From: Ascidia mentula
Lineage: Eukaryota > Chordata > Ascidiacea > Phlebobranchia > Ascidiidae
Length of the DNA stretch: 64,000 nt
Direction of reading: 5' to 3'
Assembly (NCBI GenBank): GCA_947561715.1
Contig: OX387197.1
Span: forward strand, 19,886,266-19,950,265
Part shown: piece after piece, positions 4,118 through 36,100 of the stretch
Position numbering within the stretch: the first letter of the stretch is position 1
How the letters are laid out: every line of letters begins with the position of its first letter
Notes under the pieces: model-generated
The model's database searches: none
What the model saw: the letters and a program-made list of their open reading frames with translations, nothing else
Told to the model about the DNA's origin: nothing
Position numbers and translations under genes: made by a program

Positions 4118-4283
4118 ACAAGGAGAAGAGAACATATATATTTACAAGGCTTTGCAATTTAATCCCGCTTCTTCTTTTTACTAACGTGTTTCAGTGTAGA
4201 TACTGCTTTGCATTAACATGGTGTTCAGCGAGATTGTAAGAAATTAAATTTGACGTGAATTAAATGAGAGTAACGTGATATGA

Positions 4284-4289
4284 AATAAA
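4284..4289 (+). terminator. Polyadenylation signal of gene 1
   Basis: Canonical AATAAA 167 bases after the stop codon. The equivalent hexamer is kept after gene 2 at 47942. Confidence 0.6.
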
Positions 4290-5169: not shown

Positions 5170-5300
5170 CGAGGCCAAAAGGACCCAGAACGGGTGGTTA
5201 GGGCGCAACAACAAGGGTTTTAAAATTTTCCGCTGCACTGTTAGCACCGAAACCAGTCATACACGACCGCGATTCTGGACTGGCCCAATGCTGAGCAAGA
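5170..5300. repeat. R repeat, copy A
   Basis: About 130 bases sharing a core (gcgcaacaacaagggttt, then ttttccgctgcac, then cacgaccgcgatt and ctggccca) with 6470, 48670, 49608 and 51188. I see the family only in the two intergenic regions. I do not recognise it; no coding frame is kept between copies. Confidence 0.6.
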
Positions 5301-6469
5301 TATGTATAGTTTTTTTGCGTTTGCAAAATCACTGAACATGAATCCGTAATAGTTACTGGTCCTCGTTTAGTCGTTATACACGGGGTTAACCGACAAACAT
5401 GTATACACTGAAACCTTTCAGCGTTCATGAAACTGAGGAGAAATTTAAAAATGACGAATATTTGATTGGAATGAAATCAATGCATTCTCTCGGATTTTTT
5501 TGTTACACCGGATTTATGTTGACGATTTGGTGATTTAACTTTAAACAAATATGCTTAAGTTTACTGGACACTAGCACCAAACTTGCTTGCCTACTTGTAT
5601 AAGGCAGCGGATCTGCGCTTACTTGAAGTATCGTCATTAGATTTTTCGTAAAAATGATTTTAAATCTGGTAGTGTTCGTTCGATTAGGGGATACAAATCA
5701 ACTGTATTATTGAAAAATCCTTTCTGAATAGCTGAAATCTTTTAGTGGATCATATTTATTTAAAATATGTTAGTCTTAATTCAAAACTACTGTAAACAAT
5801 ATTTACCCCACTTTGTTATATAATGTTGTGTAAAGATATCCACTGTGTTTTGAAATGCTTTGAAAATATTAATTTTTTTCGAGTTTCAAACAGTTTTTAA
5901 AACAGTTCCACCTTTATCTATCAACAGTACCTTCTATACAGGCGATAAGTAAATAAAAAGTATTTTTGTTATACAGAAGATTTTGACAGATAGACAGGCA
6001 GACAGACACGTGGTAATTGCCTTTGTGGTGTGAGTGCGTACGATGTGTTTATATTGACATAGAATCTTCAATGTAATTTAAATTCAACTCTGTTGACGGA
6101 TTTCGCATTTAAAGCGGAACAAACATAACAACCAATGTTGCCCTTTTTCGGACATCATGAGTCGGTTTGATGTAAATAACAACATAATCCGTTTCGAATA
6201 AAACAAAACTTGTTATAAAGATCGTTCTATGAAAATTTTCTTTGTGACACAAAAATGTTCGATTTGGTTTATTGCGGCACATTAGGAAATGGAGTCGGTT
6301 GAGACAAAAATGAGAAAAAAGAGATCAAATTGCAGAGCGTCGCCTTTTCTGAAGTGCGAGCGTGAAATATCTCACACGAAAGGTCGAATTCACAGAAAAA
6401 AGGCGAAGTGTGCGGCGGTAAGCGGTCGGATTCTTGTGTGCATAGTTTTGCATGCAAAGTCGAAAACAA

Positions 6470-9180: not shown

Positions 9181-12100
9181 GTAAGTAATTTCCTTTACAA
9201 GTTCTGTAAAGAACCTGTTTATTGCAATATAAAAAGCAGATAGGTTTAGTTTGTAAAACAGTAATAACCGAGCTTTCATTACAAACAACTGAAATCGTTC
9301 ATTTGTTAGAAATACGTATCAATGTAAAACGTGAGTTGGAAATGTTATGTGAAGATTTTTATGTTGAACTTTTGATTGTTAGTTGCCAATAAAACAGAAG
9401 TTCTGCTTCAGCGACTGAGGGCTGCAGATTTAACAACAGCGATTGGCGACTTTTATTCCTACCGTTATGACAATTCATTTCCTCCAATTAATTCAATTAT
9501 TGACGGCGGTGGCGACATGTATGATGGTGGAAATCGAGTAAGATTATAAATATATACAACAACAAAAACAAAATAAATAAATAAACTGATATTTTTTATA
9601 GGTGTATTTCACTGCTGATGGAATTCGAGTCTATGCCGAATACGATTTAACATATGAGTAAGTTTCATAGCGTTTACAGATTCAGAAAATTGTTCGTTGC
9701 AGACGTGTTTTTGTATTGTTAAAATCGAGGCAAAATGTTGCAAATTTTTTTTTATTAGTCGTTCTGACTACTCGTTTTCATCGTTGGCCATCTACCCATT
9801 CACCGCGTTTTTCTACATCAACTCAACCAACGCTGCAAGTGACAGTTACTCTATTGAGGTAAAGTGAACCAAATCGGCGTTGAACTGTGTACGGATGAGC
9901 TCGATGGCGCGGGACAAAAATAATCCAGAAGACTTTTGTTAATTTTTATCATGCAATGGAAGTTTTTGGAAAAAGTTTAAAAGAGATTCCAGTCCCTAAA
10001 CAAACTGTAACAATGTGGCAAACAAAAGTTAGTTATTGCTGTCCTCGATCAACCACCAAAAAATAATTAGTAATGTCCTGTTTCGAAAATAGTGTTTGGT
10101 TGATCACTGTTATTATTGTCGGTTAAAACGTGTTGCTGTTTGCAAAACGAAATATAACGATGGCTTGTTTTTTACGTATTAATCTAAGTGCTATTAGGTT
10201 GTTTCCAACTTGGGTGCTGACGGCAGGGGAAATTTTCGAGTGTTTTCCGGCAATGTGATAATTGGAGCTTACATACTGTCTTACAAGGGGGTTCAAGCCT
10301 TTGGTGCATCTGGCCCAAGTGTGTGTGAAGTATATTTCTACATTGCACAGGTAAGCCAAATATTCAAAAATGACATTATTAAAAATGTCATAAATATGTT
10401 TAATATATTGGTCGATTCGCAGAGGCAGACTGGACTCGAGTTTTCTTTTTCGTTTCCAACACGAAACACCCACAGCTGGCGAAATGTAGCATCTCTAAGA
10501 GGAGACACCAATGACGTTGTTTTTGGATACACACTTTTATCAACGTACGTCATGACATTTCCTTTAAGGGGGATATAAATTTCCAACACACATCAAACCC
10601 GAATCAAACAGGGGACCTCAAATGTCTACGTAGTAAATGCCCAGGTCACCCTTCGTATACAGCGACGCGACGAATGACACTAATTTGAGTAAAATAAAAA
10701 AAAAACTCACCCCTATACATCGGATTTCTGCGGCCAATGCGATTAAAATGTGACATTAGCCAAATCTTGCGCTATTTTAGTTGATATGACTAAAGTGAGA
10801 GGGGCGTAATGGACCACCGTGTGAAAACATAACTAGGCGAAAATTTCGCTGCTTTACGTTCAGTGTCCTAATGAAGTAGTTTTAACTGGGTGTTTGCAGA
10901 GCGTTATCACGAGATCCAAGGAAATTTCTGACAAGTGCTTTTAAATTTATAAATCTCGATTTTCAAGTAATATTTGGAAAATTTGCAACAAGTCTGAAAA
11001 CACGCCGAATTACAGCTGTTCGCTACAACCTTGGTACACGACAAATAAATCCGCAATGTGACGTGAAGCTCGGACTGAATCTCAGCGGTTTAGAGCCATT
11101 GTTGTAATGCGTTCATTAAACATTACCGAAGCACATACTGTCTCATCCACAGATTTAAATCCATCATACGAGTGCCAAAACTATTAATATTCCGGCGAAA
11201 CTTTACCTTTCATTGTCTATTTTGCCGAGGATAACTTTTTAAAGCATATACCGTTGTTTATCACCATTTTTTTTTAATTGTTAGCGAGATTCCAGGTCGT
11301 GAAATTACGAAATGCGAACTTGATACAACAATGTTAAACATGTTGGAAACCATGAAGGAAGGTGAGGACGTTTTGCAGTATTGTTCTGAATTTTGTGCTC
11401 TACAATGTTATAGCTTTAGGTTCACGTAATTAACGTACTTTGGAGTGACTTTGGTTTGAATTCAATTCAATTCTATTCTTTTTATTGTGAATTAATGAAC
11501 TTTTATGCAAATCACCGTCTGACGTAGGATCGCAATAAGTCGCATCATGCAAGAAAAATACATGAGCTACAAGTTTAGGCATTAACCAACAAACTCAAAC
11601 ACTATCTTCAACTAAATTGATTAGTGGCACATGTCTTCGTAACTTGCAATAAATACTTTTTCAGAGCTAGACGTCAACGCATCAATGGATCCTCAAAGTA
11701 AGAAAAGCATTTTGCATAACTGAATCACTTACAAACATGTAATCTCAATGCAGTTGCCGTGGAAACGAATGCAACATTGACGCGGCTGAAATCCTTTGAT
11801 CTCACAAAACAAATAATAAACTTTTACCGCTATCGCTACGACGATTTAACCTCACCAGTCAACATGATTATTGACGGGGGCGGTAACATGTACAACGATG
11901 GAAACAGTGTAAGTTGTATGGTTTGCAATGCGAAAAACTGTGCGTATTAAAAATTCTAACGTCAGGTGAGCTTCAGCGTCGATGGTGAATGTTTCTCGGC
12001 CACCGGATACAACGTCACTTACAAGTAGGTGATGTACTCACGGTACGGAAAAAAGGCGCGTTTATGCGCTGCGCGATAAAAGACAAATCAAATTTAATGC

Positions 12101-15100
12101 CCCTTTTTCTTTTTCTTGGAAGCCTGAAAGTCGTGCTTGCTCTCGTCGTAAACGCAACATCATTGCAGAATCTGAGACTTTCATGGCCGGAGGGATTTGC
12201 GTTATATATACCCACCATAAAATAAATAAAAACAAAACATCCGGCATAGTTTGTGACTAAAATTTAATAAATGCAATTACGTGACATTCATTGATGGATG
12301 CGCTTAAAGCGTTGCACAGCTTTGTTGCGTTGCAAAGTTAAGACTGACTCCACGAGCCAACGCAACATCAGCAAAAAAGAAACGCGGCGAAAAAGGCAAT
12401 TAATCCGCTTCGCTAAAGTGCGGTAAAGTGAGCGCTACACGCTCCTTTATATGTTTTAGTGCAAATTACTGACACGTTTTCAACATACTGTCAAGAGTTT
12501 TTTCTGGCAAACTGCAAACATTCTTCATTTGCAATCCTGCGCAAAATTAGGCAATTCGTAAATCTTAGTGACCTCACTTGCATTTGGAAAATCAACCACA
12601 GCGATCTTATTTTCAAACTATATGTTTTAGTGGATCAGACTACACGTTCACCACTCTTGCCATTCACCCCTTTACTGCGTTTTTCTATATAAACTCCACC
12701 AGCAATTTCAGCAAATCATACACAGTGAAGGTACGCATTTCGTTGCTCTTACTTCATGTTTAGTATTTCAACGAATGAAACACATAAATCCTTCTTTGGG
12801 TTGTTGTGTATGAAAAAAACATGCACATAAGCTAAATTAATGTTGATTTACAGGTTCGGTCTAATATCGGTAGTATCAGTCAAACACAAACTTTTGACGG
12901 CTATGTTTCCAACAACGGTTATGTGTTGTACTTTAGAGGTATCCAATATTTTGGTAGATATGCACCGTCAGTGTGTGAAGTATTTTTCTACATTGCAAAG
13001 GTAAAAAAGTGCATAGGTCCAGTTGTAATGCTAAATCAAAAAAGTTTTTCTTAACAGAACAACAGTGGGTTGGAGTTTTCGTTCAGCAACATCTGGAATC
13101 GCGAAAGCGAATCTGTTCTTACTGGAATTCCCCGAAATATCGTGACGGGTTACACCTTGCTTTCCACGTACGTTCAATTTTATTGCATTTGTGTGAGGTA
13201 TTTGTGGCAAAGGAATGCAATACGTGTAGTTATTATGTCATTTTTCTTTTCGTGGTTATGTTTTATTGCGCTACAGTCGTGGTGCAAAATTTCTAGGAAA
13301 GGCTTTGCGTTGCGAAGATTTCGTTTATAGTTGCTAATACGTTCACTCCACCATGCAATAATAACACTTAACATTTTAAGCCGTTAGATGACGGAAATAT
13401 TGCGAAAATATTTTGATGATATTGCCTGTTTGACAAAGTAGTGTTGGCTTTTTTTCGTTTCGCCTTCAATATCAGCAAATGTTATTTATCAGAAATATTG
13501 CGAAACCATTCGTTATATATCCAGGTCTCCGGCCAATGAAATTACGAAATGCGAACTTGATGCGACAATGTTCAACATGTTAGCATCTATAACGGCTGCC
13601 GGTAAGAACCTAGTTGTGCTGTAGCGTTGATTTGCAGCAGCCACAATTTATTTGGTTGTCATAGCAAGGACCATTATTGGTTTGGTCCTATTAATGTTTC
13701 CTTGTGTGAATTTCCCAGACTTTTTTGGTAATTACGGTTACTAGCACAAGCGCTCACATCAGCTTGCTTTTATTCTGTTGGAAGTCCAAGTTTGACGATT
13801 ACATGCTCATCCATCCAGAAACTCAACGCTATCTATGAATTGCGCAGTAGCAGTGCATGACTTTTCGACTGAAAATATTTGTATGTTTTTTTATAGAACA
13901 AGGTTTCAACGCATCTGTGGATCCTCAAAGTAAGAAAATTATATTGCATGACTGTTTTATTTTTGCAATGATTAAATCTAAATGCAGCTGTCGTTGAAAC
14001 GAATGTTACATTAACCCGACTGAAATCCTTTGATCTGACAAGACATTTGAAGAACTTTTACCGCTATCGCTACGACGATTACTCTTCTCCTGTCAACAGA
14101 ATTGTTGATGGGGGTGGTAACATGTACGATGTTGGAAACATTGTGAGTTAAATGACGTGCACAAAACACAAAAGAATTGAACATACTATATTAAAACTGT
14201 TAATTTCAGGTGGGCTTCAGCGCGAATGGTGAATGTTTTCCGGCCCTTAAATACAACGCCACATACAAGTAGGTGCTCAACTTGAGATGTTTGGATAACA
14301 GGATAAAGTGCGTTTTTTGATGCTGCGTTTAAACTATTGGGTATAAACTAACAGCAAAACTTGCAGATTAACGTTCTCACAAAGTATGTTGATCTGCTTT
14401 CAGGCCTTTTTTACAGGCAAAGGGGAAAATATATGACATTTATTTTTATAAAAATGTTTAAAAATCGAGCAAGCAATATCCCTGAAGCGCATTGAAGGTT
14501 TTGCTTGACTATTTTACACGCTTCTATATTCGCACACTAGTCCGTTCCTACGAGGCTACTGATAGTTGTTCAGTATGTCTGAAGGTTTTGTCTACATTCC
14601 AGCAGCACAATTCATTTACACTTCATTCTAGTTTTAGGTTATTTGTGAATGATCGTTACCAAACCTAGATAAGGTGATCATTTGGGATTGATTCCACATT
14701 GGTACTTATTTTTTTAGCGGTTCAGACTACACGTTTTCTACGCTTGCCATTCACCCTTTTACTGCGTTCTTCTACATAAACTCCACCAGCAATTACAGCA
14801 AATCATACTCAATAAAAGTACGTATTTGATTTGTATCTAATAGGGCCTATATATAGGCTGTAGCCAATTTGGAGCCTTTTACAAAACTAATATACTTTAC
14901 TCTTATAAAAGATTTAATATTCGAAAAAATTATCTTTAAAATCTTTTTTACATATCTTGGTGTATCATAAAATGTCTTAGCGATAAACTAAATTTCGTTA
15001 GCAGTCCCATAGGCTAAATTATCGTTGTTTTACAGGTTCGGTCTAATATCGGTAGCTTCAGTCAAACACAGACTTTTGACGCCTCAGTTTCATATGAAGG

Positions 15101-18100
15101 TTACGTGTTGCCCTTCAGAGGAATCCAATATTTCGGCAACTTCGCACCAGGAGTGTGTGAAGTATTTTTCTATATTGCATCGGTAAAGAAACTGCGTACG
15201 GTTCAAGTTTAGGTATTGTTTTGAAAACATGTTTCTTAACAGAACAACAGTGGATTGGAGTTTTCGTTCAGCAACATCCAGGACCGCGAAAGCGAATCTG
15301 TTCTTATTGGAATTCCCCAAAATGTCGTGTCGGGTTATACCTTGCTCTCCCCGTAAGTTGATTTCTGTTGCATTTTAAGTAAGAGTCAGGCACAAATTCT
15401 TAAATTTCCATACGCTACAATATGGGTGCAATAGCCATTACTTCAAATAATTTTTAAACAGATATCTGCGTTGGGGGCGTTTAATCTCGCCAAAGCTGTT
15501 AAAAGATACAATGCTCGACTTGCTAATCGCAGTGACAAAAGGTAAAAAAACAGCTTTTAAATATTACTTATTAACAGTTTCACTCAACCAAAGGTCTTGT
15601 TACCAAAATAATTATGTGTTCTTTGTTGTAGTTTTTTGTGCACACGATCGATTGTTTGCCACATTTCAGGTGTTCAGATTCCGGACGAGGAATTGCAGCA
15701 GGACCCAAACGGTTCGTAAAATTGCGTCATATTTCTGAGTAAACCAAATTTTTGCACAACATACGTACTTCTAAGCTGCAGACAGGTTGTGTACACGCAC
15801 TGTTTCGACCTGTTAGGTCTCATCGGTGCAGCCTTTTAAGTTTAGTGTGCCGGCTAGTGCAGAAGCTAGCACGTGCCACTTCAACAGCTGCACTGATGAG
15901 ACCTTACATGTCGAAACAGTGCGTGTACACACCCTGTCTGCAGCTTGCAAATATAATGGCTTTTTTGCACATATACGTACTTTTGATCTTATAAAATTGC
16001 GAAATTAGGGTTAAAGCTGGACAATTGCAAGTTTAATATTTCTTAGATTACTAAATACAATTAAAAAGTAAGTCAAAGTTTTGAAAGGCAGTTTGGCAGT
16101 TTAATCCCTATAATAGAACATGATTTAGCGTTGGTGCTCCACCTGTTTGGAACGCCCAGATTGGTCGGCTTGTTATTGCTGGTTCACAAGTACATACATA
16201 TAAATATGATGTCTTATGCCGTTTTTTTATGTACATACAATTTACAATATAAAACACATACAAAATTTTCTTCAGTTGCAAGCGAAACAAAACTTCTCTT
16301 GGAGCGACTGCGATCTGCAAATATCTCGAGCCATTTGCCTGATTTCTATGAAATTGTTTACGATGATAACTCCGAACCAATCAATCAAATCATCCGTGGA
16401 GGATTTTATCCAAACTATTTGTTTTCAGAAGGAAATTTCGTAAGATAGAATGAAAACGCCAATTGATTAAACTCACAACCTATTAATTTTAGGTATATTT
16501 TGGTATCAACGGTGATGGTTGTTTTGTTGAATATGATAAAATATACAAGTAAGTGCAACGAAAATAATCAACTTCATAGAATAAACATTATCTTAGTCGA
16601 ATAAATGTTCTATTATGATAAACCATTTTGAAAAAGCACTCGCAAATTAAATTTATAATAGATAGAACTTGAGATAAAAGAAAGAAATATAAGGAAGAAA
16701 CACATCATTCTGCCTACTTTCTCAGATATGCCTTAAATTAAACAGAGTTTATCAAATAACTTACCAACCAAACATCTTGTTAGCGCCACAAACGCATCTA
16801 CTTGAATCACATGAACAGTAGATAGGCTATATGTTGCAAAATATTGTGGATATTTGATGAAAGTTGATGTTTAAAAATTGATTATAAATATGTATGCAGC
16901 GGTACGGACTATTCTTTTTCGACCCTTACTATTCAACCATTCACCGCCGTTTTATACGTCAACACGACTGATATTGCATTGAGAAGTTACAGTATTGAGG
17001 TATAGTGCATAACTAAGATTTTTGTATTTGCTAGAACTTGCTTATGGTTATATTTACATTATCTATATTTGAAGATAAAATATAAAGACATTTGTACCAA
17101 AAATAAACTTTTAGCCATCATTTTTTTAAGGTATGGTCGAATATTTATTCATACCAGAGATCAACCGATTTCTCTGGTACTGTATCATACAAGGAATACG
17201 TTGTCGTGTACAAAGGTGTCCAGTATATTGAAGGACAATCCGCAACCGTGTCTAAAGTATTTTTTCTTTTGACCCAGGTAAGTGTCGTCTCAGTAAATGC
17301 AAAATAAGAAAGCTTTTATAAGTCGAATAAAAACAGATCGTCAATTTTAATGAAACAGCTGAAACTTGAATAAAATATACATGATGAGGACAGACACTTG
17401 GGCACGAATTTAAAATAAAACACACAGTGTTAAAACAAAAATGAAGATCTGCAAATGTACATGACATAAAACACAGATAAGATCGAAAGTCGAGAGAAAT
17501 GTGCGTTTGTTTCTTTTCATTAAAGCGATTTTGTTTTTCAGGGGCAAGGTGAATACGACTTCACATTTGACGTGGTGCACAGGAGATATGCCAATGCTAC
17601 ATTTCGCGGAAACGCGACAAACTTTGTACTCGGTTACGTTTTATTATCCAAGTAGGCAGAGAATTTTTTGTGAAAAGTATAAAACGTTTCTTTGACGTGG
17701 AAAAGTAAAAAGATATTTTCTGGAATCAAAGAACGTTTCGTTATAGTAATAAGGTCCAGGAAGACATTAGCACACTTAGGCTAGCGATCGCAGTTGGTTG
17801 CTACCCAAATTATTAGCACAAAAAGAGTCATGTGAAACATAAGTTTAACTACTTCAAACAATTGATGTTAAATTAGTTGGTATTTACTTTACTACGTCTT
17901 ATACCCACCCTTATTGTATGTACCTTTAGCACGAATCCCGGTCACGAGTTTACATCTTTCCAATTAAAAACCACGATGTCCAAGCTGATGATGACAATCG
18001 TTGATGGTGAGATAAAACTTCAGATAATTGGTTTGTTTATAATTTCGGCTTAATTATGTGGGAAAGTTTAATTATGAAAGAAGTCATTTATACCTAAAAA

Positions 18101-21100
18101 TTAAATTTTGCATTTTCCCATATTTTTTGCAGATTCAACCTGAAACCAAATAGTTTATCGTGTTATCCTTAACTTTAAGGTCATTTTTGCATACTTATTT
18201 CATACTTTACTTGTTTTACCAGGTACCATTTATCCAGAACCACAACCTAATCCACAAAGTAAGTTGATTTATTATAATCACTAAATAAACATTTTAACGG
18301 TCTTTCGTATAGAATATATTCTGGATAAAAAGCCCAACATCAGCTAACGTAATTGACAAAATAACTTTTTTATTCATCATTATAACACAAAACATCAAAT
18401 ATTAGTGGGCAACGATCTCCACATAATATTGGAACGTTTTGCATCCTCAAATTTGAGGAACAATTTCAAAGACTTTTATGACTATCTTTATGACGATACT
18501 GCTGTTCCGATAAACATGATTAGGAATGGTGGCAACAATATATTCAATGAAGGAAACATAGTAAGTGTGCATGTGTATTTATACATACTTGAAACAGCAA
18601 CCTATAAAATGTAGATTTACTGGTACGTGAATGAAGATGGCCAACTTGCCGAATACAACAAAACCTACAAGTAAGCGCTGTTGCAATTATAACACTATTA
18701 TTCCTGTAATTGTGACTACCATATATTCAGTGGATTCGACTATGCATTTTCAACACTTGCAACGCATCCATTTGTTGCACTGCTGCTCACAAACAGCACC
18801 ACTAACGAGACAAGGACATACACGATTGAGGTGAAAAATAAATTTGGTTTTTGCAACACAAAATAAAAATACCCAAAAAAAGTTTATAAAAAACATAGCT
18901 TGGTAAAGAAAGTTTGTAGCTGTACAGGCTTTATTTAAATGAACTATGCTCTATTGTTTTACTAGTCGTGGTCAAGACTTTACAGATACGGTAGGAGAAC
19001 GACATTTTCCGGTTCAATTTCCAATGAAAACTTCAAGTTGTCGTTCGATGCAGTTCATTACTATCAAAGCTATTACCCTACTGTGTGCAAACTCTTCTTC
19101 TTTGTAACGCAGGTACTTACTTTCTTGTATAAACTTCCCAGAATTGTACAATTTATTTACGAATATTTTACAGATAAAAGTCTGATAGATTTACCACAAT
19201 ATTTAGATTTACCTCTTTTTTCGTTTAGAAACAAAACGACTTTACCTTCACATTGTTTGAGAGGTACAGTAGGTACAGACAAAGCATAGCTTCATTTAGT
19301 GGCAATTCTTCGTTCGCCGTGTTCGGATACACATTGATTTCGACGTAAGTTGTAATGTGGCCTGATTAAAGCTAATATCATTTTTCACAAATTGATAAAC
19401 CGCAAAAGTTCGTGTCGCCACTCCTATTCCTTTTCACAGAACGTTCCCAAGCTTTGCAATTACTCAGTCCCAGGTGGGAGCTACAATGAATCGTATTCTA
19501 CACGCCATAACGAAAAGTGTGTTGGATTTTATCCAAACGTGGTTTTATTGTGTGGGGTGTAATTAAGCAACGAAACAATTCTTAAGATGCTTCAAAATAA
19601 TTATTATTTTGTGTATAAGCTGCAGACAGATGGCCACTGTTTCGACCTAAAAGGTCTGCTTATCAATTATTATTTTGCTTGCAGGTACTAATTACACCGA
19701 GGAATCACAAGCCCAAAACAGTTAGTACCTTTTTCTGATCGCTTTAAAACTCCTGAATCAATAGTAGTCAACGGCTTTACGTATGTGCCGTTTCCTTGAT
19801 TATAAAACACCTTTAGCAGCATTAACACGGTGCCATGCGGAGGATGCCATTGAGTAGAATACAATAAAATTGCAAGAAAGGGTATCTTTTTTATGTTTTC
19901 TTATAAATTCTTAACCGTTGTGGAACGACATCATCACCATTGCACACGTATGCATAATTATAAATTTAATTTATAGTTGGTATGGAGACCAACGCGATTT
20001 TGGAGAATTTAAGGTCTGTGGATTTAACCAGGCGAATCCGCGACTTCAATCACTACGATTATGACGATCATTCTCATCCCATCAACATGATATCTAACGG
20101 AGGCGTGCTGTTTAGTAATGGAGGAAATCTGGTGATCTTTTTAAAATTAAATACTCACCTGGAGTTTTAAATATCTGACTTTACTTAGGTTCATTATGCT
20201 GCAAACGGCGATGGCGTGAATGTTGAATACAACCAAACCTACAAGTAATACAACATCCAATGATTTTATTTTGCACTATTTAGTATTTTGTGGACAGCAT
20301 AAATCTCCTTAGCAATCTTAGATTAAGGCAATCGCAAATATGTACTAATGCTTGGTTCTTAATAAATGCAGTGGCTCCGACTACACATTTTCAACAGTGG
20401 CCGGATATCCGTTTTTTGCTGTGTTGTACACCAACACAACATACAGTAAGGACACGGCATACAGCATCTCGGTAACCTATTATTTTATATTTGGTATCCT
20501 TGTTATACTGCTGCCATATTTTTCCAATAAAATTATATGATCGTAATGTGCAGCTCATTCTTGAATTGTTGTGTATATATTTATAATTCTTTTATAAATA
20601 AATATTCAACAGTAAACTCTTTGACCAATTCTCCGGCTTCGAGGTTGGTTTAATATAGCGCAGAAATGGAACAAAGTGGATACTTTTACCTTTGAACTAG
20701 GCTATTTATAAATAAGACACAAATAAACAACTAAACAAAAAATAAAATTACTTTTAGGTATGGTCACGCATTCGAACCTATCGAGTACGTACCTCTTTTT
20801 CCGGGTCTGTGTCAAACGAGTTCTACAAAGTGTCATTTGAAGCGGTTCAATATTCATATGAAGGAAACTACCCAACAGTCTGTCAATTGTTTTTCTACAT
20901 TGGGGCGGTAAAACATTTTATTTTGACGTCTTGCAAAAAGTAATAGTGTATACTGTTGTTTTAGATGGACAATGACCTGGCATTTGCATTAACTTTAACA
21001 ACCGCAGTGTTTGGCCGTTACCAAAGCATTGAAGCGAACCTGAATGGAAACAACACATTTACCATCCTCGGTTACCTCTTATTATCCTCGTAAGTAGAAC

Positions 21101-24100
21101 ACTTGCGCATTGTTATTTAATGCACAACGTAATCATATATGCAGTACACATACTTATACGACTTTAAAACAATGTCCACGAACCATCTTTCTTGATTTTA
21201 CTAGATCGTATCCTGGGCATGTAGTGACAACAGATCAAGTTGAGGCGACATTGCAAGATATTTTGGACACTGTAATGGAGGGTGCGGATTTCCATTTCTT
21301 TAAAACAGATTATTATATATTATGATGCTAGCGTTGATAAATGAACCTGACCCAACTAACTCGTTAAATGATCGAAACACAAACGGACTTCTTGTCATTG
21401 TTCAAGTCGTTCGTTTGATTTTGGTTTGTTTGGCTGCTGCATTTTCACATTAATTTTTCATCAAAGTTTGTACAATAATACCACGAATTTATCTAGCGAT
21501 GTATCTTATATCTTTCAGTTTTACCTGCGCGATCCTTGGAACCACGCAGTAAGTGTTTTTTTGTATACGGGTATCTATTGTTTTCAATAAGTTAACAAGT
21601 GTGTCACGTTCTACATTACTAGATTTTTTTCCTTTGCCTATTTTAGTTTTCCACGAAAGTGAATCTTTTTTGAACCGTATTTCTCGTTCTGACTTAACCA
21701 GTCACATGTTGGACTTTAATCATTACGAATATGATGACTCCAATCAACCAATGAAATCAATCGCTAATGGAGGAAACAACATGTTTAACGAAGGAAACCA
21801 CGTAAGGATTTTAACTGCTTTTCACATGCCCAATTCTCATAGGTTAGAATTTAAAAAAAAACAGGTTTATTTTTTGGCAAATGGAACCGGGGGATTTGCA
21901 GAATACAACCGAACATACAAGTCAGTAAAAATATTATTAATGCGTATAGTGACATTCACGCATGTTGTACAATTATTGTGTTATATTGTATAGTGGATCT
22001 GACTACACGTTCACAACATTAGCAACTTATCCATTCACTGCGATTTTGTACACGAACACAACTCTATCTAGACACAGGACATGGACAATCGAGGTTGAAT
22101 TTGATTCCGTTTTGATTGTTTAGTGTAAAATATTCCTTGCTACCACCACAAGTTCATTACCAGTCATTTAGGCAACGTGTTGTTTGGATTACCATGTTTT
22201 TTTTCATAAGGAAACTATGCAAATTCTAATTAAACGAAACATTGTTTCAGGTCTGGTCACGATTACATTATTCCTGGACAACTAGCACCTTTGATGGAGT
22301 GATATCCAGTGGAGAATACGTGTTATCATATCGGGCAACAAATTATCTGCAAAGATCCATCTCTTATTATAGTTACAATTACCCAACCATATGCAAGGTC
22401 TTTTTCTACATTTCAAGACAGGTGAATTTGTAACTTATAAATGAATACACCCCCTCTCAGAGCAAAAAAGAGCTATTGCAAGCAAATACCATAAGTTGTT
22501 TATAACCAAGTGGTTGTTTCCTCTGTGCAGCGTAAACTTTATTCAGAAAAAAATTATCTTTGTTTTCCGATAACTTGGCTTTTAACAGAACGAAAGCACC
22601 TTCGAATTTACATCAATGCATCAAAGTTTGTGGTGGGACAGTAGACGAAGTCAAACCATAGGAAAAATAAGTGGAAATGCAACATATCTTGTGTTTGGTT
22701 ACATCCTAATCTCTACGTAAGTGTCACGGAATTATTTCGGCAATCCAACGCTGCCTCCCTAATACAAAAAAGGCCCGGATCCTACAATAACGGCTCACCA
22801 CTAAAGCCAAAATACCTCACACTGGTTTCACTAAATGGGCGTCCAACTTTAATAAATGAACTGATGTTAAAAACGACGACAAAAAAGTACATACAATACC
22901 ATTAAATGCGAATAAACAATTCAATACAAAGTACTTGTTGGGCAACACTAAAAACAACCGTACAGCGCGACGCCCATCTCAAGACTCCCCGGGTCATACA
23001 CACAACACTCCTTGCACCGGCCATTCAACCACTCAACCATTTGCACGTGAACCAATGGAGCGTTACAGGATGTGGCAAACATAGAAAACCACTATTGTGC
23101 GAAAATAAACACAAAGGGAAATTTGATAAAAAGTGAGTGCAAGGAACGATCAAAAACGAAAGCATAGTGCGATGTGTTGTGTACGTATATGTAATAAGGA
23201 GTGCTTTAAATAACAACACAGATGAACAAAGAAAGCATAAAGAAAAGCATTAGTGCCGTGTGTCATTTTCGCCACATAAGCAACCACGAATCATAGATAT
23301 GAACGTTTTTTCAGTGCAAAGGAACATCGTTATAGCATTTGTGAACAGCTATCATTGGAAAATATTTTGTACCAACATAAATAAATAAGGCAGACCAGAT
23401 TTTTTAATTTTCATCATATTTCAATGTAACAAACGCATATATCTGTTTCAGTCAATGGTACAGCAAAGTTGTGACAAACCAACAAGTCGAAGGTACAATG
23501 CGAATCATACTGAATGCAGCAACAGGCGGTAAGTTCCAAGTTCGTTACCTAAAGCAATGCATCAATGAATAGAGATCGCAACTAACATGTAGTGGGTGTG
23601 TAGTATGACCATTCGATTATTTAAGTCGTTCGTTTAATTTTGGTTTGTTTGTCTTAATGGCTGCTGCATTTTGCACATTAATTTTAAATCAAAGTATGTA
23701 CAATAATACCAGGAATTTATCTCGCGATGTATCTTATACCTTTCAGCTTTACCTGCGCGATCCTTGGAACCACGCAGTAAGTGTTTTTTTGTATACGGAG
23801 GTCTATTGTTTACAATCAGTTAACAAGTGTGTCACGTTCTACATTACTGGATTTTTTTCCTTCGCGTATTTTAGTTTTCCACGAAAGTGAATCTCTTTTG
23901 AACCGCATTTCTCGTTCTGACTTAACGAGTCACATGGTGGACTTTAATCATTACGAATATGATGACACCAATCAACCGATGAGATCAATCGCTAATGGAG
24001 GAAACAACATGTTTAACGATGGAAACCACGTAAGGATTTTAACTGCTTTTCACATGCCCAATTCTCATTGGTTTGAATTAAAAAAAACAGGTTTATATTT

Positions 24101-27100
24101 TGGCAAATGAAACTGGTGGATTTGCAGAATACAACCGAACATACAAGTCAGTAAAAATGTTCTTAATGCGTATTGTGACATTCACGCATGTTGTACAATT
24201 ATTGTGTTATATTGTATAGTGGATCTGACTACACGTTCACAACATTAGCAACTTATCCATTCACTGCGATTTTGTACACCAACACAACTCTACCTAAAAA
24301 CAGGACATGGACAATCGAGGTTGAATTCTGATTCCGTTGATAAGTCTTTTGCATAAAATATTCCTTGCTACCACCACAGGTTTATTACAAGTCGACAAAC
24401 ATGTTGTTTGGATTAACAGGCCTTTTACAATGAAACCAAGCAAAAACTAATTAAAGAACACATTGTTTCAGGTTTGGTCACGATTACATTATTCCTGGAC
24501 AACTAGCACCTTTGACGGAGTGATATCCAGTGGAGAATACGTGTTATCATATCGGGCAACAAATTATCTGCAAAGATCCATCTCTTATTATAGTTACAAT
24601 TACCCAACCATATGCAAGGTCTTTTTCTACATTTCAAGACAGGTGAATTTGTAACTTATAAATGAATGCACTCTCCTTTAGAGCAAAAAAAATGTTTTGA
24701 TAAAATGAGCTGATACAAGCAAATACCATAAGTTGTTTATAAACAAAGTGGTTGTTTTCCGCTGTACGCAATCTCTGATCAGAAAAACTTTATCTGATTT
24801 TTTTGATAACTTGGCATTTAACAGAACGAAAGCACCTTTGAATTTACATCAACGCATCAAAGTTTGCGGTGGGACAGCAGACGAAGTCAAAATATAGGAA
24901 AAATAAGTGGAAATGCATCATATCTTGTGTTTGGTTACATCCTAATCTCTACGTAAGCAACCATGAATTATAGATATGAACGTTTTTTTTTCCACGCAAA
25001 AAAACATCGTTCTAAAGTTTGTGAACAGCTTTTATTGGAAAAAAATTTGTTCCAAAATAAACAAAAAAGGCAGACCAGATTTTTTAATTTTCATCATATT
25101 TTAATGTGACAAACGCATATTTCTGTTTCAGTCAATGGTACGGCTCAGTTGTGACAAACCCACAAGTCGAAGGTATACCTACAATGAGAATCTTACTGAA
25201 TGCGGCAACAGTCGGTAAGTACCAAATTCGGTACCTAAAGCAATGCATCAATTAATAGAGATCGCAACTAACATGTAGTGGGGGTGCAGTGTGACCTTTC
25301 GATACTGTAGTTTACATCGGCGAAAATTTTGTTTCGAATAAACTGAATTTTTCAGATCTTCTCCAATCACGAATAAACGTATTTCCTAATTTATATAGAA
25401 CCATGTTTTAGAAAAATAAAATTTAAATACAACCATTGACCGGCCCACCAAAGTGTGGCAGATAAAAGCAAGGACCACGTAAGTTACCACTCTGCAAAGG
25501 TTTTTGATTGGACACTCGGTGAAGCCAACACCATACGACAGTTATTGATGATTAGTTTTAACTTGCAATCTGATTTCAAAACTGCTTGCGTAAAGTGTTT
25601 TTTGTTTCTGTTCGGACCGGTTGCAAATGTCCCCATTGGCCAGTGCCGGTTCGCGAGTTGGTAGTCCTGCAAACTTAGAAATGTAGATCAGGTCCGCGAC
25701 TCTGATCTACATTTCCAAGTATATAAAATAGTAACTTCGCAAACCCTCGACTAACGAGCCGCAAATATGTCGCAACAATTAATCTATGTACACTGAAATG
25801 CGACTTGAAATTACTGGGACTAAACAATGTTACTACTTTCAGCAGTAATTTCAAAAGTAGGTTTTTGCTGCAACACGTTTATAATAAATCTTGAAAACGA
25901 TATACAGCTGTAGTTTTTTCAAATAAATGTATCTACTTTTTGGTTTTCGGGTCGCACAGTTTTTAAAAACGACAACCTCCGGTGATCGAAAATTTTGGCT
26001 GCACACACGCCGTGTAAATATTTTCGTTTGTTGCAGAAGCTCTTCCCACGCCACAACCAACCGACCCACGAAGTGAGTAAAGCTTAAACATATGAATTTT
26101 TAAGAACTAAATAACTTTAGTGAGATTTGTATCTTTTGCACGCAAGTTCAATTCTGCAACAACTGTGTATGTTTTTTTTTCTAGTCGTTCTAGAGATGGA
26201 AGAAGTTTTGGAAAACATTAGATCGGCCAATTTAACGAAGAACATTGTGGATTTCCACAATTATACATATGACGATATAGATCCTCCCATAAATAGAATA
26301 TCTAGAGGAGGAAACATGTTTAACGACGGAAACTACGTGGGAACACTTTTCTATTACACTTGTATTAAAACCTAAATATTCTTTTGGACAGGTTTATTTC
26401 CATGCAAATGACATTGGTGGTGTCGTTGAATACAACCGGACGTACAGGTCAGCGGTTGCTTGTACTAAGCAGCCTAATGAATCGTGTTGTACAGTTTTTC
26501 AAAACAATTGGTACCTTTCAATTCATTTGTAACCTATGTTTGTACTGTTTCAGTGGTTCTGACTTCGCGTTTTCAACGCTGCCAATTCATCCCTTTGTCT
26601 CTATTTTGTACACCAACACCACATATAGCAAAAACACAACGTACAGCATCGAGGTAAACGATGTTTTAGATTCAAAGTTGTAAAAGCGTTGCGGCAACGT
26701 CTTCTCTTTTAATAGAGTTGTACGGAGGTCGCGAAATTAAGTATTGTTATGTCAATAGTAAATAACAAACGGGTTAACCATACAGTATGTATAGCTATGT
26801 AGTTAGCGCCAAAGCTTTTGTTGTCTGGTAGAACTAAAATTGTGTCTAATCAACAAGGTGTGGTCGCGGTTATTCAGCTACAGAAAAAGAAGCACTTTCT
26901 CTGGGTCGGTATCAAACAACAACTACGTGTCAAGATTTGAAGCTGTTCAATATTCACAACACCCATACTACCCGTCCGTGTGCAAAGTTTTCTTCTGTAT
27001 ATCCCGACGCGTAAGTTTTCACTAATTAAACATGGAAGTATTAAATGACCTCTACTTTCACAATCGTCAAAATACATATCGTAAAACATTTTTTTATTAC

Positions 27101-30100
27101 GCTAAGCCATTTATAATTGTATTTTCGTTATCTCAATGTGATTTGTTTACAGAACGAAACTGAACCAGAGTTCACTTTCACAGAACAATACCATAGTAAT
27201 AATTATAGACAAAATAAAGCAAACCTTAATGGAAACACAACGTTTGCCGTGTTGGGTTACGTTTTGCTGTCGACGTAAGTTCCATGTACTAATTATAATG
27301 TAACACCTTATTGTTAATATTCAGTTAAATACAACGTGTATAGTTTGAAAAAGCAAAAATATTTTTTAGCTTTAATAAATGGAGCACAGGTGTTGTTTCA
27401 AATCATTGATATTAAAATTTTAACTTACACAAAATTTTAGAATAACGCCAAGTCGCACCATCACGCAACTTCAGGTCGAGTCAACGACGTTAGCTATACT
27501 CAATGCCATAACAAACGGTAAGTAATTTGTTTTTTTAATGACAATTATTTTAATCAGGGATGCCAATGGGTTTTATTTTAAACACAATCCAACACAGTCA
27601 GTTTTCATCCGACATAAAATAAATTTTGATACGACCCTAGCCTTTAAAGTAGGTCAAAATAAGCAAAAGAAGATAAGGTTATTGCCGAGCAGCTATAAAA
27701 ATTGTTTCACAATTTGGGACAACGTAACAAAATTCCATCCGGAATTGAGAGCTGGAAATCATGGTTAACCCATTGTTGTACTTCGTCTGATCCCATGCAG
27801 AGGTGCAAATTTAGTTTAGTAAGTTTAGCAAATTCGGCTTTTTTTATCATATCCATCAGTATGTGAATAGTTGTTGCGAACTAAAACAAATTTAGCAATA
27901 ACAGCCTGTAAACGCTGGTATGGTATACTGCCATATATATGACAAATGTTTTATGCACGTTCCATGTTTTTAGAACGTGTTGCTGACGAACAGCCACCAA
28001 ACACAGAAGGTATTTGCTTTGTGATTTTGTTGTGACACTGCCATTAGCGTGAATAAAAAGCATGTTTTAAAAAAGCATGCTTATGACAAGGAGTGTTTTG
28101 TTTCAAGTTTTGACGGGTGCTTTGAATAGCATTGAATCTTCATATGTGATAAGACATCTGCCGGATTACCACCGTTATCTCTACGATGATTTCGCCCAAC
28201 CAATCAATAAGATAACGGATGGAGGCGATAACATGTACAATGATGGAAACTTGGTAATCAGAATAAGCTTCAGGCATAATTTCACAAATTGCTTCATATA
28301 GTTTGATTCTATTTTGTCCGTAGGTAATCTATGATGCAAACGGTGATGGTGGTCTTGTTGAATACAACAAAACATACAGGTTTTTATGCATTGAAGCACA
28401 TTTGACGTTTTCGTATTTTTGTAATTTCGTCGTATTTATGTTTTGTACGAATTTTGTATGTATATCCTTTTTTTTGGTTACGCTATCTTGAAATTTGTCG
28501 AATCTTTCAGCGGTTCCGGCTATTTGTTTTCAACCCGCGCCACTCATCCATTTTTAGCACTTATGTACATTAACGGAAGTGACCAATCACCTAGGAGTTA
28601 CACCATTCAGGTGAGGTGTTCAATCTTATAAAAGCTTTGTTCGAGAAACGTTGATGATTTGTATTATATATCATTTTCAAGTTGTTAATTAAGTTGTGTA
28701 TCATAAACTACTGAGGCAAAACCCTAAAGCCAACATCAAACGTTTTTGACAAAATTATAGGTGTGGACAATCGTCGGCAGCTATCAACGGGAAATGACCT
28801 TCTTTGGGTCAGTTTTTATTGATGACCATGCATTATACTTTCGAGGAAGACAGTTCTTCAACGGGTTTGCCCCAAGTGTTTGTAATGTCTTCTTCCATGT
28901 TTCCAATGTATGTTATTTCTTGTTTCAATGTAATGTTTCCTTAAACTTAATAATACAAGCTAAATGATCACAAATTAGATATCGTAGTGAAATAAAAACG
29001 ACAGGATTAAAACGCGTGGTATTAAATACATAGTTTTGTACATTTTTGCCGCATTGCCATCAAGCAGAAGACAACCGATTTTATTCGTTTTGTTTAGAAT
29101 CAGAGCGGTAGCAGTTTGACTTTTCAAACAGGATCTTATCACTACCGAAGCGATGTCGCTGTCCTTACCACAAACGAAACAAACACTTTCTTCGGTCATA
29201 TTCTGCTTTCCACGTAAGTTACTATTATGGAACGAACGCATGAAGCAAGGCTGAAACAAAGCCAAGTCGGTGTGCCAAAAAAATAATAATCATGCTTCCA
29301 CAGAAATATGAACTTACGAACCAAGAGCACAGCGGTAAATGTTGGTACGTTGTGGCCAACGTACACCGGCTTTACAATGCCCAAGATCGCGAGTTCAAAC
29401 CTTAATGGAACCTTGATCTCGCTTGGAGAGATTGGGGTAAATTATACCTCCGTGGTATAGACAATTATTTTGTTCGTGATTTGAACTCGCGATCCTGGGC
29501 AAATACAATTAGGGAAGCATTAATTGATTAATAATAACAAACAATGCTTCAACACATACTGTTTGGTTAGTACTTTAAATTGGTGCTTTAAGGCAGTGCT
29601 TCCCAATATTTTTTGGCTTACAGCACCCCACAAATTAAGCAAAGTTTTCTTGGCACCCATTGGGGACCAAGAAGTCCGCATTAAAATATTTTAACAAATA
29701 AAAAATTTCAATATCAAGTGCATGTAGATAACCTGAAATATTCAAATGTCGTTTGTTACAAAAAAAAAGGTTTCGCGGCACGCTGGGAATCACTGCTGTA
29801 AGGTATATAACATTTTTAATAAACCTATGTAATTTCTGTGTCTTTAAGTTGGGACCGAGGTCGAGAAATTACGCAACTCCAACTAGAAAATACAATGCGT
29901 GATGTATTACAAGCTTTAGTCAACGGTAAGCTTTATAAAGGCAATCGGATAAGCATTTATAATCTTAATATTTCGTGCATTCATTCGCTTTTCGGTATGT
30001 TTTTCACCCAATCATGGAGGTTCTGTTTATAAGTTTTACTTTAGATATCAACCTATCAATTAAAAAAACTTCGTTTTGATTTAAAGATAAGAGAAACGCA

Positions 30101-33100
30101 AATATACATTCTACTTGATGTTTAAAGATATTATTGGTTGTGTGTTTTTTAGGTACAATAGATCCAATACCACCACCAAATCCCGAAGGTAATTTGTTAG
30201 TTGTCGTACACATGGCAATATGTGTAATAAATTTGTTGAAATTCCAGTTGTCGAAGTGGCAGAATGTTTGCGGGTGGGAATAGAGACGCTCAACCTAACA
30301 GGGCACGTCGCGAATTTTTCTCAATATGTTTATGATGATCGGTCGTATCCGATTAATTCCATTGTTGACGGAGGAATTAATATGTACGATGAAGGAAATA
30401 TTGTACGTATATTAGCTTCATGTAAGCTGCTCAAATTTTAATGTTTATTGGTTGTTTTGTGCAAAGGTGAGGTTTAACGGAAATGGAGAAAGCGCTTCTG
30501 CCGAATACAACAAAACTTACTAGTATGTATAAGAACTACTATATATTTCATAAGAGTATGTTTTTTAGCAGTAATTTTCCTTGGGACTCGTAGCGCCTGC
30601 TTCTAACCATCAGGGTGCATATATTAAAACTGTTAAATAAAGTAAGCCCTTGACACAACAAGTCCTTCGCGTGATTGCCACGCATACATTCTCTCGCTTG
30701 AAGATCTTTTCAAAGAAATCGCACGTAACCGTCAGAGGCGATAAAATGTTATGACGATAAAAATAATAGTACTTATCGCTTGAGAACAAGTTTTGTGTTT
30801 TAAGTGGAAAAGACTTTTCATTTACAACGTTGGCTCTTCATCCTTTTGCCTCATTCCTTTATATTGGTCGGAATGCTCCCACAAACGGGAAATATTCTAT
30901 TGAGGTTACAAATCTTATTTTTGCTGTAAGCATTTAAATATATATGTTTTGAGATCACTATAGGTGTTATCAAGAGTAGGGTACTATTACTATTACGGAA
31001 GGATTGCGGATGAATTTTCGGGCTCTGTGTCAAATGGGGCTTTTGTGCTTAACTTCAAAGGATTTCAAATTTATGACATGCATACCCCAAGCATTTGTGA
31101 AGTCTTTTATGTAGTCTCACAGGTAAAAGCACGATGTTTTTTGTCTTGAAACGCGTCTTGGCATATGTTGTAAACAAAATATTTTAACATGAAATTTACT
31201 TTACATTAAATATGTAATCTAAACTTGAATAAATTTTAATTTTCAGAATTTAACTTATTTGGATTTTGAGGTTTCCTCGACAAATGGATATTATTATAGA
31301 GACTATAACAACATAGCCACTCTTTCAGGAGATGCTCAAAACAGCTTGTCCTGCTTTCCACGTATGTTTCTCCTAAAATAATGGTGGCGAAATAAAAGTG
31401 TCGACAAATATAGATATTACAATGAAGGAGTTTTGGCTGAAATGTGTAAACGAACTTAATTTTATATTTTGTGCGCAAAATTTCGGTTGCTTAAACTTTT
31501 TAAACAAAGAATTAACTTTCCCTACTCAGACTGGAAGTCAATTTAGAATTCTACAGTTTCTGATCGTGATAAATCTTCAATCATGTCCTAGTGTTGTTTA
31601 GTGCTGTGCAAACTGTATAATTTTCTGTCTAGCTACCCTGTACGCGTTATTACGCTTGATGAATTGGAGACAACCATGCGGATGATGTTGGACAGTGTAT
31701 CTGAAAATGGTGCGTCTCGAAAAGCAATTATTCACTATTACTAATGTTCAAGCATCTGTAAAATTATTTTAAAACACAATGACCTGGACATCGGATTGTA
31801 TACAAATATGCAATGTATTGGAAAGTGCAATTAACACATCAAAAAAATGTGTTTGGTTATTTGCTCGCATAGTACATTTATACTTTTTTTAGGTTTGGCA
31901 GAAAAAGAAATCGTTTCCACAAAAGGTGACTAAGATTTTGCTTTTTTTACATTTGCAACCAAGAATAAATCATCAACGAAAAGTCAGTGGAAGTTAGACA
32001 AATAATCATAACGAAAGTTTTCTCTTTTTGCAGTGGAAGCGTTTCCCGGAAGTTCGGTTATTTATTTGAACATAACCAGATTGAACGTCAGTATGGCTAC
32101 ACGCACGTACTCCATTGATATTATGGGACTTAGTCAGTTTTGGACGATTACAGCCTTTGACGTGGAATTCTTGTTGATCACTGGCCTAAGTCCCGAAGTT
32201 ACTTACGAACTAGTCGTTTCGGTTTTAAACGATGGCCTGCTGGAAGCGTCGATAACTCTTAGAGTAACTACAAGTATGTTGCGTTGCTATAAATACACAA
32301 TGCAGGCGAAACGTAGTTCTCATTTAAGTAATATTCTACCGTTAAAGCTAACAAAAAACTTGTTGTGCAGCCAAATTCTGTACTCTGTCGTGTACAAACG
32401 GCCACTGCATCGCCTTTTCATCATCAAGGACGGAATGCGTATGTAACAGCGGCTACGCAGCTCATCCAATCCTGCCCAATCTTTGTTTGGACGTAAACGA
32501 ATGCCAAGACACGCCTTCACCATGCCCAGTAAACTCTTCATGTTCAAACAGAGGTGGATCATACACTTGTCGATGCCCCAGAGGTTTACAACTGTTTGGA
32601 GACCAGTGTGTAGGTCAGTAGCTTGCTTCTCCTTTTTCGTGCTGCAACACTAAAAAAGCATATCACAAGCAAGAAAATTGACCTACCTTAAACACTTTCC
32701 ATGTATTTTAATGCAAATCAACGTACATGTCCGAATAACGTATTATTTAGGCTCAAACATCTGCGACCAGGAACCCTGCAATAACAATGGAACGTGTCTT
32801 TCTCTTCAAGGAAGATTTTCTTGCGATTGTCGTGAAAATTTTTTTGGTTCCAGATGCGAGTATTACACAAGTCCCTGCTTAAATGAACCTTGTGAAAATG
32901 GCGGAACCTGCGTCGATACGTTTGGAGGTTATAGGTGCAATTGTCCAACCAACTATCAAGGTTAAACAAAGAAACCATTTGTGCAATTGTATTTTAGCTT
33001 TATAGTTCAGGTGTGCATCCAGCACAGTTGCAAGTAAAATAATTGTGAGGGCAAAATGTTTTTTTCCTGATCTGCACAACCGAAAAAAGATTGTTTAATG

Positions 33101-36100
33101 GTGTGATTGCCATGTTAGATTTGTTTTTTGGTTAATTAAGGAACAAACTGTCGAGATGACGCAAACGAGTGTCAACTCAATACGTTTAATTGCGACGAAA
33201 ATTCCCACTGCGAAAATACGTTGGGTTCCTATAACTGCATTTGTAACGACGGATACAGGTTTGCTTGACAAAGTAATCTTCAAATCTTCTTTGTCTATAT
33301 ATCATTATATTGCAGAGGAAATGGAAGGAAAAAGTGCTACTTTATTAGACTACTTCCGTATGGCCCGGACGAAGGCGACGAGTTGTTAAAAATCGGAGAC
33401 GACGTTGCTTCGCCAACGATTAGGTAGAACGTCGGTACATTTTGTTATTTTATTACAACACAACATTGTGTTAAGGTCGTTCTTCAACATTCCTTTCCGC
33501 TTCAAGAGGTTCAGAGCTATGCATGTCACATCAAATGGTTTGATATCTCTTGGTATTGATTCTTGGTTTGTCAAATACCTTTACCGTCCACCATACAATG
33601 GATTCGGTATTTACGATATCGAAATTATTGCTCCTTTCTGGGACGACTTTCATCCGAGTAAAAACAACAATGGACGTGTTTATTATCAGGTATTTTTTAT
33701 TCCAAATACAACCATAGGGTAAATTAATTACTTTTGCACTAAAAAGAAACGAAAACCCAGCTGGGATAAATATTAAAACACTTCGTGTTGTGTAAACCCA
33801 AGAACGTTAAACATTGTGCAGGTTTATGACCAAGGAACAGTCACTTTGACTAATAGGAGTGTGACTGTGGTAAATGAGGTTGCAAGTCGCATCAACACGC
33901 ATTTACAGAAGGACGACTTTGAACCACTGTTTGTGTTGAAAGCTACGTGGAGTGAGGTTGTGATGTACAACGAGTTCTACAACCGCAATTATGTAAGTGA
34001 AGGCTAATTCCATTGGGCTGCAAATGCTAAATGACATTCACCATTTTATTGGCAGGACTTTACTGATATATTTCTTGTAACACACGTTGTTGATATAACA
34101 TACCTTGGAACATAAACAATTCATACATGTATACATAGTGTTTGCAGGCTTGGCAGCCAAGGCATTGCAGCCTACCTGGATCAGCCACTTTTTCATGACA
34201 AGTCGGAGCAAGATTTGAAAAATCAAGCTCCCGGTGAGGTTTGAACTCACCACCCTGGGCTAACCAGGCCCAACGCTCTACCAACTGAGCTACAGGAGTT
34301 CAGTGGTTTCACGGGGTATATTGTGGCCAAGGTAGACTGGTGCGCAAGCGCACGACTTGCCAGGCAACCTTCACATACAAAAAGTGGCTGACCCAGTTAG
34401 GCTGCAATGCCTTGGCTGCCAAGCCTGGAAACCTAATGATCGCGATACGATAGCTGTGATCGCCAGGCAAGGACCTGCGTAGTGGGGCGATCCTGCCAAT
34501 CATACCATTGCATGAAATATTACTGTATACATAGTGTTAATGCATATTCATTCCAAAGAGCAACAAATGGTGTTTGCCCTATTCACAGGATATTATTTGT
34601 ATATTTCAGCCTAGTACATTCCAAGCGATCATAGCGAGCGATGGGACCGACACCTACCTTATCTACAACTACAAGGAAGACGCCATGTTGTGGGATACAC
34701 GAAAGAGATATTACAGGGGAAACCGGGCTTTAATTGGGTACAGGTTTGCCCTGGGTCACGAATACATTGAAACACAGGGAGATTACAGGCCTGACCACCG
34801 CAATCAAACAGCAGGTTCGCTATTTCTGTGGGCATTCACATAGCGGCAATATTTTTTCTGCTCATAGCGCGTGTTTTGCATAATTTGATTTTTCAAGACC
34901 ATAAAAATAAAATTAAGTGTACAATAATAATTGTGCTTCTTCAATAGGTCTTCAAGGTACTACAAGAAAATTTTTTGTTATAGGTGGCCCAACAGGCCAG
35001 TATTATTATCAAGTAGCACAAGGCCGTGACAACGAAGCAGCAGCAAGGAGAGGATGTCGAAAGTGGGCTTTGCGAGACGTAAGAGATCCGTGGAAACCGG
35101 AAGAAGAGCCCTGTCCGTGCAATAGTCTTCAGGCGCGAATTGACAGAAGGTTCACATGGTCTGTGGACGTGGAGCTCTACGTGAACTCTCTCCGCGACAG
35201 ATACTTACCCGATTATTATCGAACAGCAAACTTTGAGGAATGGGGATATGATGATGGTGAGATGTTTTGCTGATATTTGTATTTGTCGTGTTCCTTGCGA
35301 ATATACTACATTGGTAAAGAAAATGTCAAAAATGACTATAGGAATTAGCCTCCACAGGTCGGTGACCGGCTTTACGAATAAATATATTATATTCCCGAGA
35401 CTCCAAAAAGAGCAAAGAACGATCAGGAATACAATTACATTGGATTAAACTTTTTTCAAATTGCTTTTTCAAGTTTACCATCAACTATATTACAATTCAA
35501 CTATAACCACATTTTCTAATATTACCATTGTGTTTGTGTGAAAAATTAAAAGGCTAAGCTACGTCTATTAATATAACCCCACATCCCAAGTTTTGACATA
35601 CACATGCACAACAGGAAGTAATATCTACATAATATAATGTACCATTTGTTTTGCAGTCGGTTTGTACAACTGCTACCAACCTCGTGTCAATACGGGCCCA
35701 AGGTGTTGCTACGCACTTCGTGGCACTTCATTTTCACGGCTTTGGGGGTGGTGGAGTCAAGCTCCACTCATATCAGGCCCGTTTGCTAGTCGATACGAGC
35801 GCAGTCAGATTCCAATATTTGAACGAAACCCACGTTGGTCTTGGGTTTCCACGAGAAGCAGAGAGTTATTTGAAGCTCAATACAACCGCTCGTTGGGTGA
35901 GTTTCAATTCACTCCAATATTTCTAAAAATCACCAAAAATTTTACCATTTCAACATTGTGTTTCCCTAAAGTAAATCACTACTCACATGCGATATGTTCG
36001 AAAATCATGTTAACATTCTTGTATTAGAAAACGACCTCATTCCTCGAAGGCAGTGCTGCGTTGAGAGCAACGATCCACTCCTCTGCAGTTTGTATCAGGC

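Follow-up and report, generated by a model that had tools for sequence, protein, structure and literature searches.

MUC4 is a mucin that carries NIDO, AMOP, VWD and EGF domains. C1q is common to the fibres of extracellular contractile injection systems (eCIS) and to animals and constitutes a precedent for the exchange of a domain between phage-tail-like fibres and metazoans (PMC12923769). The DNA analyzed here (the window) is a stretch of 64,000 nt from the ascidian Ascidia mentula (contig OX387197.1, below C1; C1:19886266-19950265), part of an assembly of 195.8 Mb. In the mitochondrial contig of this assembly (19461 bp), AGR codons of cox1 fall mostly on conserved glycines, in agreement with the ascidian code. 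The window contains MUC4-like genes with tandem arrays of a module that is encoded by a recurring unit of exons, a to f. Profile comparisons show that this module is homologous to a domain of viral contigs and bacteria that is unnamed in the libraries searched.

The exon unit, its arrays and the host genes

Iterated exon profiles identified 17 copies of the module on the plus strand, 11 of them spanning 9383-31709 and six from 52135 onward. These are all of the copies counted in an initial annotation of the window, which had listed 11 in tandem and 17 with its third gene. Exons a to f matched their profiles with E values of 3.7e-5 or lower in 100 of 101 cases; the remaining match, with an E value of 1.2 for exon f of copy 3, was admitted on the strength of its position and splice sites. 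AG/GT sites were present at the expected phase and place in 99 of the 101 exons, a count that is partly circular because the sites were looked for at that place and phase, some being picked by hand from several candidates. The other two are both exon e, that of copy 17, for which no acceptor was found, and that of copy 11. The intron phases are 1-0-2-0-0-2-1, and the a-f block is therefore symmetric and can be duplicated with the frame intact. Exon c is 100 nt long in all 17 copies. Seven exons per copy had been proposed; the six exons a to f do follow one plan, and the seventh, a linker exon g of 8-12 residues and phase 1-1, is plausible by eye in 12 of the 15 inter-module gaps.

The spliced copies encode 213-230 residues, and fourteen of them share 34-54 percent identity with copy 1. 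Copy 17 (185 residues) is truncated at the window end, and the exon f that follows in sequence is found shortly beyond it (C1:19950321-19950397, locus L046). One copy is frameshifted: exon e of copy 11 (31247-31366) lacks 10 bases that are present in a paralog (L045:477-612, C1:19.876 Mb), and its frame is therefore lost. The ratio of nonsynonymous to synonymous substitutions is 0.24-0.48 in four copy pairs, in two of which the partner belongs to a paralogous gene; these values suggest that the protein is under constraint. With copy 11 left out, the single cysteine expected of each copy occurs in eight of 16 copies but not in the other eight, the range being 0-3. In the same 16 copies, N-glycosylation sequons are indeed numerous, with 78 observed and 52.3 expected from shuffles. 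Copies 7 and 8 represent a recent duplication (21397-22721 and 23616-24957, with DNA identity of 89.9 percent). The features of the window are listed below; the 17 copies rest on exon profiles and splice sites, with the two exon e exceptions given above, and the other domains on Pfam.

9383..11361, +, copy 1 (exons a-f 9383-9537, 9602-9657, 9759-9858, 10198-10350, 10423-10544, 11285-11361)
11754..13601, +, copy 2
13988..15541, +, copy 3, exon f diverged
16276..18006, +, copy 4
18406..19516, +, copy 5
19977..21281, +, copy 6
21647..23528, +, copy 7, near-copy of copy 8 in DNA
23875..25214, +, copy 8, near-copy of copy 7 in DNA
26185..27517, +, copy 9
28108..29925, +, copy 10
30248..31709, +, copy 11, exon e out of frame through a short deletion relative to its paralog
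32352..32618, +, EGF_CA exon region, 3' of the first array
32654..32962, +, EGF exon region
33390..33719, +, NIDO, first part (19.7 bits, alone below the cut-off of 25)
34541..34840, +, NIDO, second part (38.9 bits)
37133..37489, +, C8-3_MUC4 domain (28.2 bits, cut-off 25)
40773..41024, +, EGF_CA
46666..46995, +, fibronectin type III (fn3)
52135..53479, +, copy 12, opens the next gene
53840..55043, +, copy 13
55616..57235, +, copy 14
57653..59176, +, copy 15
59582..61119, +, copy 16
61592..63780, +, copy 17, exons a-e (no acceptor found for exon e; exon f beyond the window)

A Pfam scan of 10 open frames found exons matching EGF, NIDO, C8-3_MUC4 and fn3 to the 3' side of the first array. Because of these downstream matches the host protein is classified as MUC4-like, as the initial annotation had held. 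With respect to AMOP and VWD, three of the 10 unspliced open frames scanned, including the regions expected for both, were without a Pfam match. The 3' ends of consecutive genes (751-5861 and 44560-50275) consist, in pieces, of DNA that is 88-94 percent identical, and the MUC4-like gene itself has therefore been tandemly duplicated. Within the MUC4-like gene region, long open frames on the minus strand (42285-44351) resemble by eye the pol of a Gypsy-type retroelement, and a tRNA-Thr (ggt) gene lies on the minus strand at 34225-34300, between the two NIDO exon regions.

Many more copies of the module occur elsewhere in the same genome. On C1 they are found at 19.75 to 19.96 Mb, 18.5 Mb and 23.0-23.1 Mb; C2 has them in two regions, and others are on C67, C70, C71 and C72. 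Paralogs outside the window have diverged less and possess the core Y.YD..ISDGGNDMYDGGN ... HPF.AL ... NLGADGSG ... DPSVCEVYF ... GYTLLS. In one canonical copy (L039, C70:13260001-13270000), exons b and c are apparently fused, and the same exons are found again about 7.26 kb further on.

Relatives on viral contigs and in bacteria

The initial annotation recognized no known family in the module, and with respect to named families this was correct. A strong match to a named domain family was not found: 15 window copies (all but 11 and 17) and three paralogs gave no Pfam family at cut-off, and the 15 window copies gave none in NCBIfam. The best score of DUF3845 (PF12956), 16.7 bits in one of the 15 copies, is below its gathering score of 25. 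Other Pfam families, including SPV1_VP10 and DUF2515, matched a single copy each, below cut-off or weakly, and matches to PDB sequences had E values of 0.19 or worse; both were attributed to chance. A literature search for the motif strings gave no match, and no title or abstract on the domain was found among the works listed for MUC4 and tunicates, shared tail-fibre domains, endostyle mucins, or tail fibres and supersandwich folds.

Relatives do occur, however, on viral contigs and in bacteria. A scan of viral contigs with an ascidian paralog as query gave six loci, and later scans gave 3, 24 and 38, many of which were the same contigs again. Among the 24 loci, 11 (L069-L079) match the N-terminal part alone of the query used in that scan; in L052 the domain is C-terminal to a part of which these 11 contigs match residues 1-119 and nothing further. 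Twenty-four domain sequences from IMG/VR viral contigs (from L047-L114) were aligned as A3. The first prokaryote scan, which used the viral alignment as query, found no relative because of its sensitivity; the second, with an ascidian paralog as query, gave 17 bacterial loci (L121-L137), presumably from Planctomycetota, Bacteroidota, Verrucomicrobiota and Chloroflexota. Thirteen of the 17 were aligned as A5, and none of these had a match at the curated cut-offs of the Pfam and NCBIfam libraries. In PHROGs, none of the 24 viral members had a significant match, the listed ones being phrog_8529 in one member (best E 0.023) and phrog_21123 in two (best E 0.076). In GenBank phages, tblastn gave no match for two viral members or for one bacterial member, and the same bacterial member had none in plasmids.

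The homology of the three sets rests on profile comparison. The window profile aligned with the viral profile with a score of 75.8 over 199 columns, and the best of 200 match-column shuffles scored 23.4. Likewise, the score with the bacterial profile was 67.9 over 180 columns, where none of 150 shuffles exceeded 22.9, and the viral and bacterial profiles scored 122.9 with each other (best of 150 shuffles, 24.5). The alignments are co-linear and extend from the N-terminal helix, or close to it, as far as the C-terminal helix. Exons a to f therefore together encode one whole domain, and under the explanation preferred below each module is a complete domain, extracellular and about 215 residues long.

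The genes near the microbial relatives provide an indication of function. The viral sample comprised 10 neighbour proteins on seven contigs, scanned against PHROGs, and a tail or virion neighbourhood was supported in three of the seven. Specifically, the domain copy of L111 is flanked by tail-fibre genes on both sides, a gene near L047 matches a tail-spike/virion family, and a gene near L051 has a virion structural match. The other four do not decide: the neighbours of L095 and L105 had no PHROGs match, those of L104 matched families of unknown function only, and L101 has a kinase-like gene and a weak terminase match. In L051 (4827-7591), the domain is present in each of two adjoining viral genes, and in the second it is preceded by a segment with a weak, sub-cut-off immunoglobulin-like match.

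The bacterial hosts are open frames of at least 700 residues, several of which are cut by contig ends, and one of the two scanned with NCBIfam contains choice-of-anchor D domains. The domain is rare in bacteria: in genome samples from two phyla it occurred in 1 of 198 and in 2 of 199, with the centre genome counted each time. An Aureispira metagenome-assembled genome (L123, L131) has four matches, three of which, one of them partial, share a single open frame of the same contig. Overall, the viral and bacterial settings suggest an extracellular role, and it is from these settings, not from measured activity, that the label 'adhesion module' is taken.

Acidic loops, predicted fold and alternative explanations

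Two acidic motifs, scored as DGGxD[MI][YF]DxGN and GADx(x)G, vary little or not at all among the 24 viral and 13 bacterial sequences. In the window both are kept only by copies 1 and 12, with which the two arrays begin, and the other 15 of the 17 copies have neither. The second motif of copy 1 is GADGRG, and copy 12 has DGGSDMYDGGN and GADGAG. Among 36 further copies in the genome, near-duplicates included, 20 have both motifs, 12 have neither, three have only the first and one has only the second; thus, the two losses go together, if not strictly. The 15 motif-less window copies are assigned to the family by profile and gene family only. In a tree of 57 rows, built without copies 11 and 17, thirteen window copies form a supported derived set, with a value of 99 in the Shimodaira-Hasegawa-like approximate likelihood-ratio test (SH-aLRT). 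Copies 1 and 12 fall outside this set, beside two conservative paralogs, with supports of 83-92 that are below the mark of the tool. On this phylogeny most window copies are a derived form without the two acidic motifs, and we read each array as an ancestral-type first copy followed by diverged repeats.

Structures were predicted for viral copies only. One viral relative gave an AlphaFold2 (AF2) model with a predicted local distance difference test score (pLDDT) of 88.3 and a predicted template modelling score (pTM) of 0.91, in which both acidic motifs lie almost wholly outside strands. The predicted structures are beta-rich, as had been anticipated for the ascidian module. In structural comparisons of both viral models, carbohydrate-enzyme chains make up most of the 50 matches listed. 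These are supersandwich-domain chains of glycoside hydrolase (GH) families GH65, GH94, GH116, GH92 and GH63 and of polysaccharide lyases, and we take the supersandwich (galactose mutarotase-like) fold to be common to them.

The explanation preferred here, which is held with modest confidence as a whole, is that the module is an adhesion-type domain of an unnamed family that has been arrayed in MUC4-like genes. The family would function in adhesion, probably by binding glycans. The module would have been duplicated as a phase 1-1 exon block within MUC4-like (NIDO / C8-3_MUC4 / EGF / fn3) genes, and the array, in place of mucin repeats, would make up the protein's outer part. The Gly/Asp-rich loops DGGxDMYDxGN and GADGxG may form or support a putative binding site. 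Each array's first copy, in which the loops are kept, could then be the functional tip, and the loop-less copies would be an extended, N-glycosylated stalk. The presence of loop-keeping and loop-less copies in one protein provides a natural contrast that makes the idea of a binding site directly testable.

Several observations fit another role, in which the arrays are structural only and serve as a beta-rich spacer holding the EGF/NIDO part away from the membrane, with a ligand bound by no copy. Both motifs have been lost from most window copies, sequons are in excess, and the array occupies the place of the mucin region in the established layout of MUC4. The first copies, however, keep the motifs that hardly vary in the microbial sequences, and the domain adjoins tail-fibre genes on some viral contigs, so that a purely structural array seems rather unlikely. 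The prevalence of glycoside hydrolases, phosphorylases and lyases among the structural look-alikes listed, together with the invariant Asp in the two motifs, would also be expected if the domain is or was a glycan-acting enzyme of which the ascidian copies are mostly dead versions, but this is considered improbable.

A more basic question is whether the likeness to the viral and bacterial proteins could reflect chance or convergence of Gly/Asp-rich loops. Some of the evidence does weigh in that direction and against homology. Two window copies (alignment A2) share just 19 percent identity with the viral sequence L047, single viral sequences match the ascidian genome weakly (best E 8.8e-4 and 0.013), and shuffles that included gap-rich columns reached a maximum of 135.75 (mean 15.0), compared with 73.2 for the real pair. 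This maximum is ascribed to the gap-rich columns, presumably its cause. When match columns only are considered, no shuffle approaches the real score, and the bacterial comparison agrees. Moreover, most of the domain, the C-terminal helix among it, is matched co-linearly, and the canonical paralogs bridge the gap between the window copies and the microbial sequences. Chance or convergence is therefore regarded as very improbable.

Origin and comparison with known systems

The origin of the domain was addressed with a tree of 47 rows (10 chosen animal, 13 bacterial and 24 viral sequences). The animal, bacterial and viral sets form three separate supported groups, and therefore a recent transfer in any direction among the sampled sequences is unsupported; the tree does not tell direction or age. 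A bolder proposal is that a recognition domain with which phages and bacterial surface proteins attach to cells was acquired by tunicates, or is anciently common with them, and then became a multi-copy MUC4-like family, the canonical first copy of which recognizes microbial glycans at filter-feeding surfaces. This scenario is doubtful, but if true, sea squirts would possess a receptor family whose recognition head shares its origin with phage adhesins. Independently of it, one domain, unnamed in the libraries searched, connects viral genes, of which some have tail-fibre neighbours, with large but rare proteins of bacteria and with an animal family that has expanded; this domain may serve as a recognition module in widely different organisms. 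A combined profile of alignments A1, A3 and A5 would allow anyone to annotate it.

Compared with MUC4, the ascidian gene is similar in having NIDO, C8-3_MUC4, EGF and fn3 exons after the array, but it possesses an array of folded domains where MUC4 has mucin repeats. The bacterial domain (L121-L137) resembles the window module in its profile match over most of the length, in its common motifs and in sometimes occurring in several copies. In contrast to the ascidian module, it is without introns, forms a separate clade from the animal rows and is rare. The viral-contig domain is likewise similar by profile over most of its length, but it is longer (about 240-280 residues), with longer loops, and it too is without introns and in a separate clade. 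In most viral frames read it is single or C-terminal and does not form a long array. Finally, the C1q of eCIS fibres (PMC12923769) is another domain than the ascidian module.

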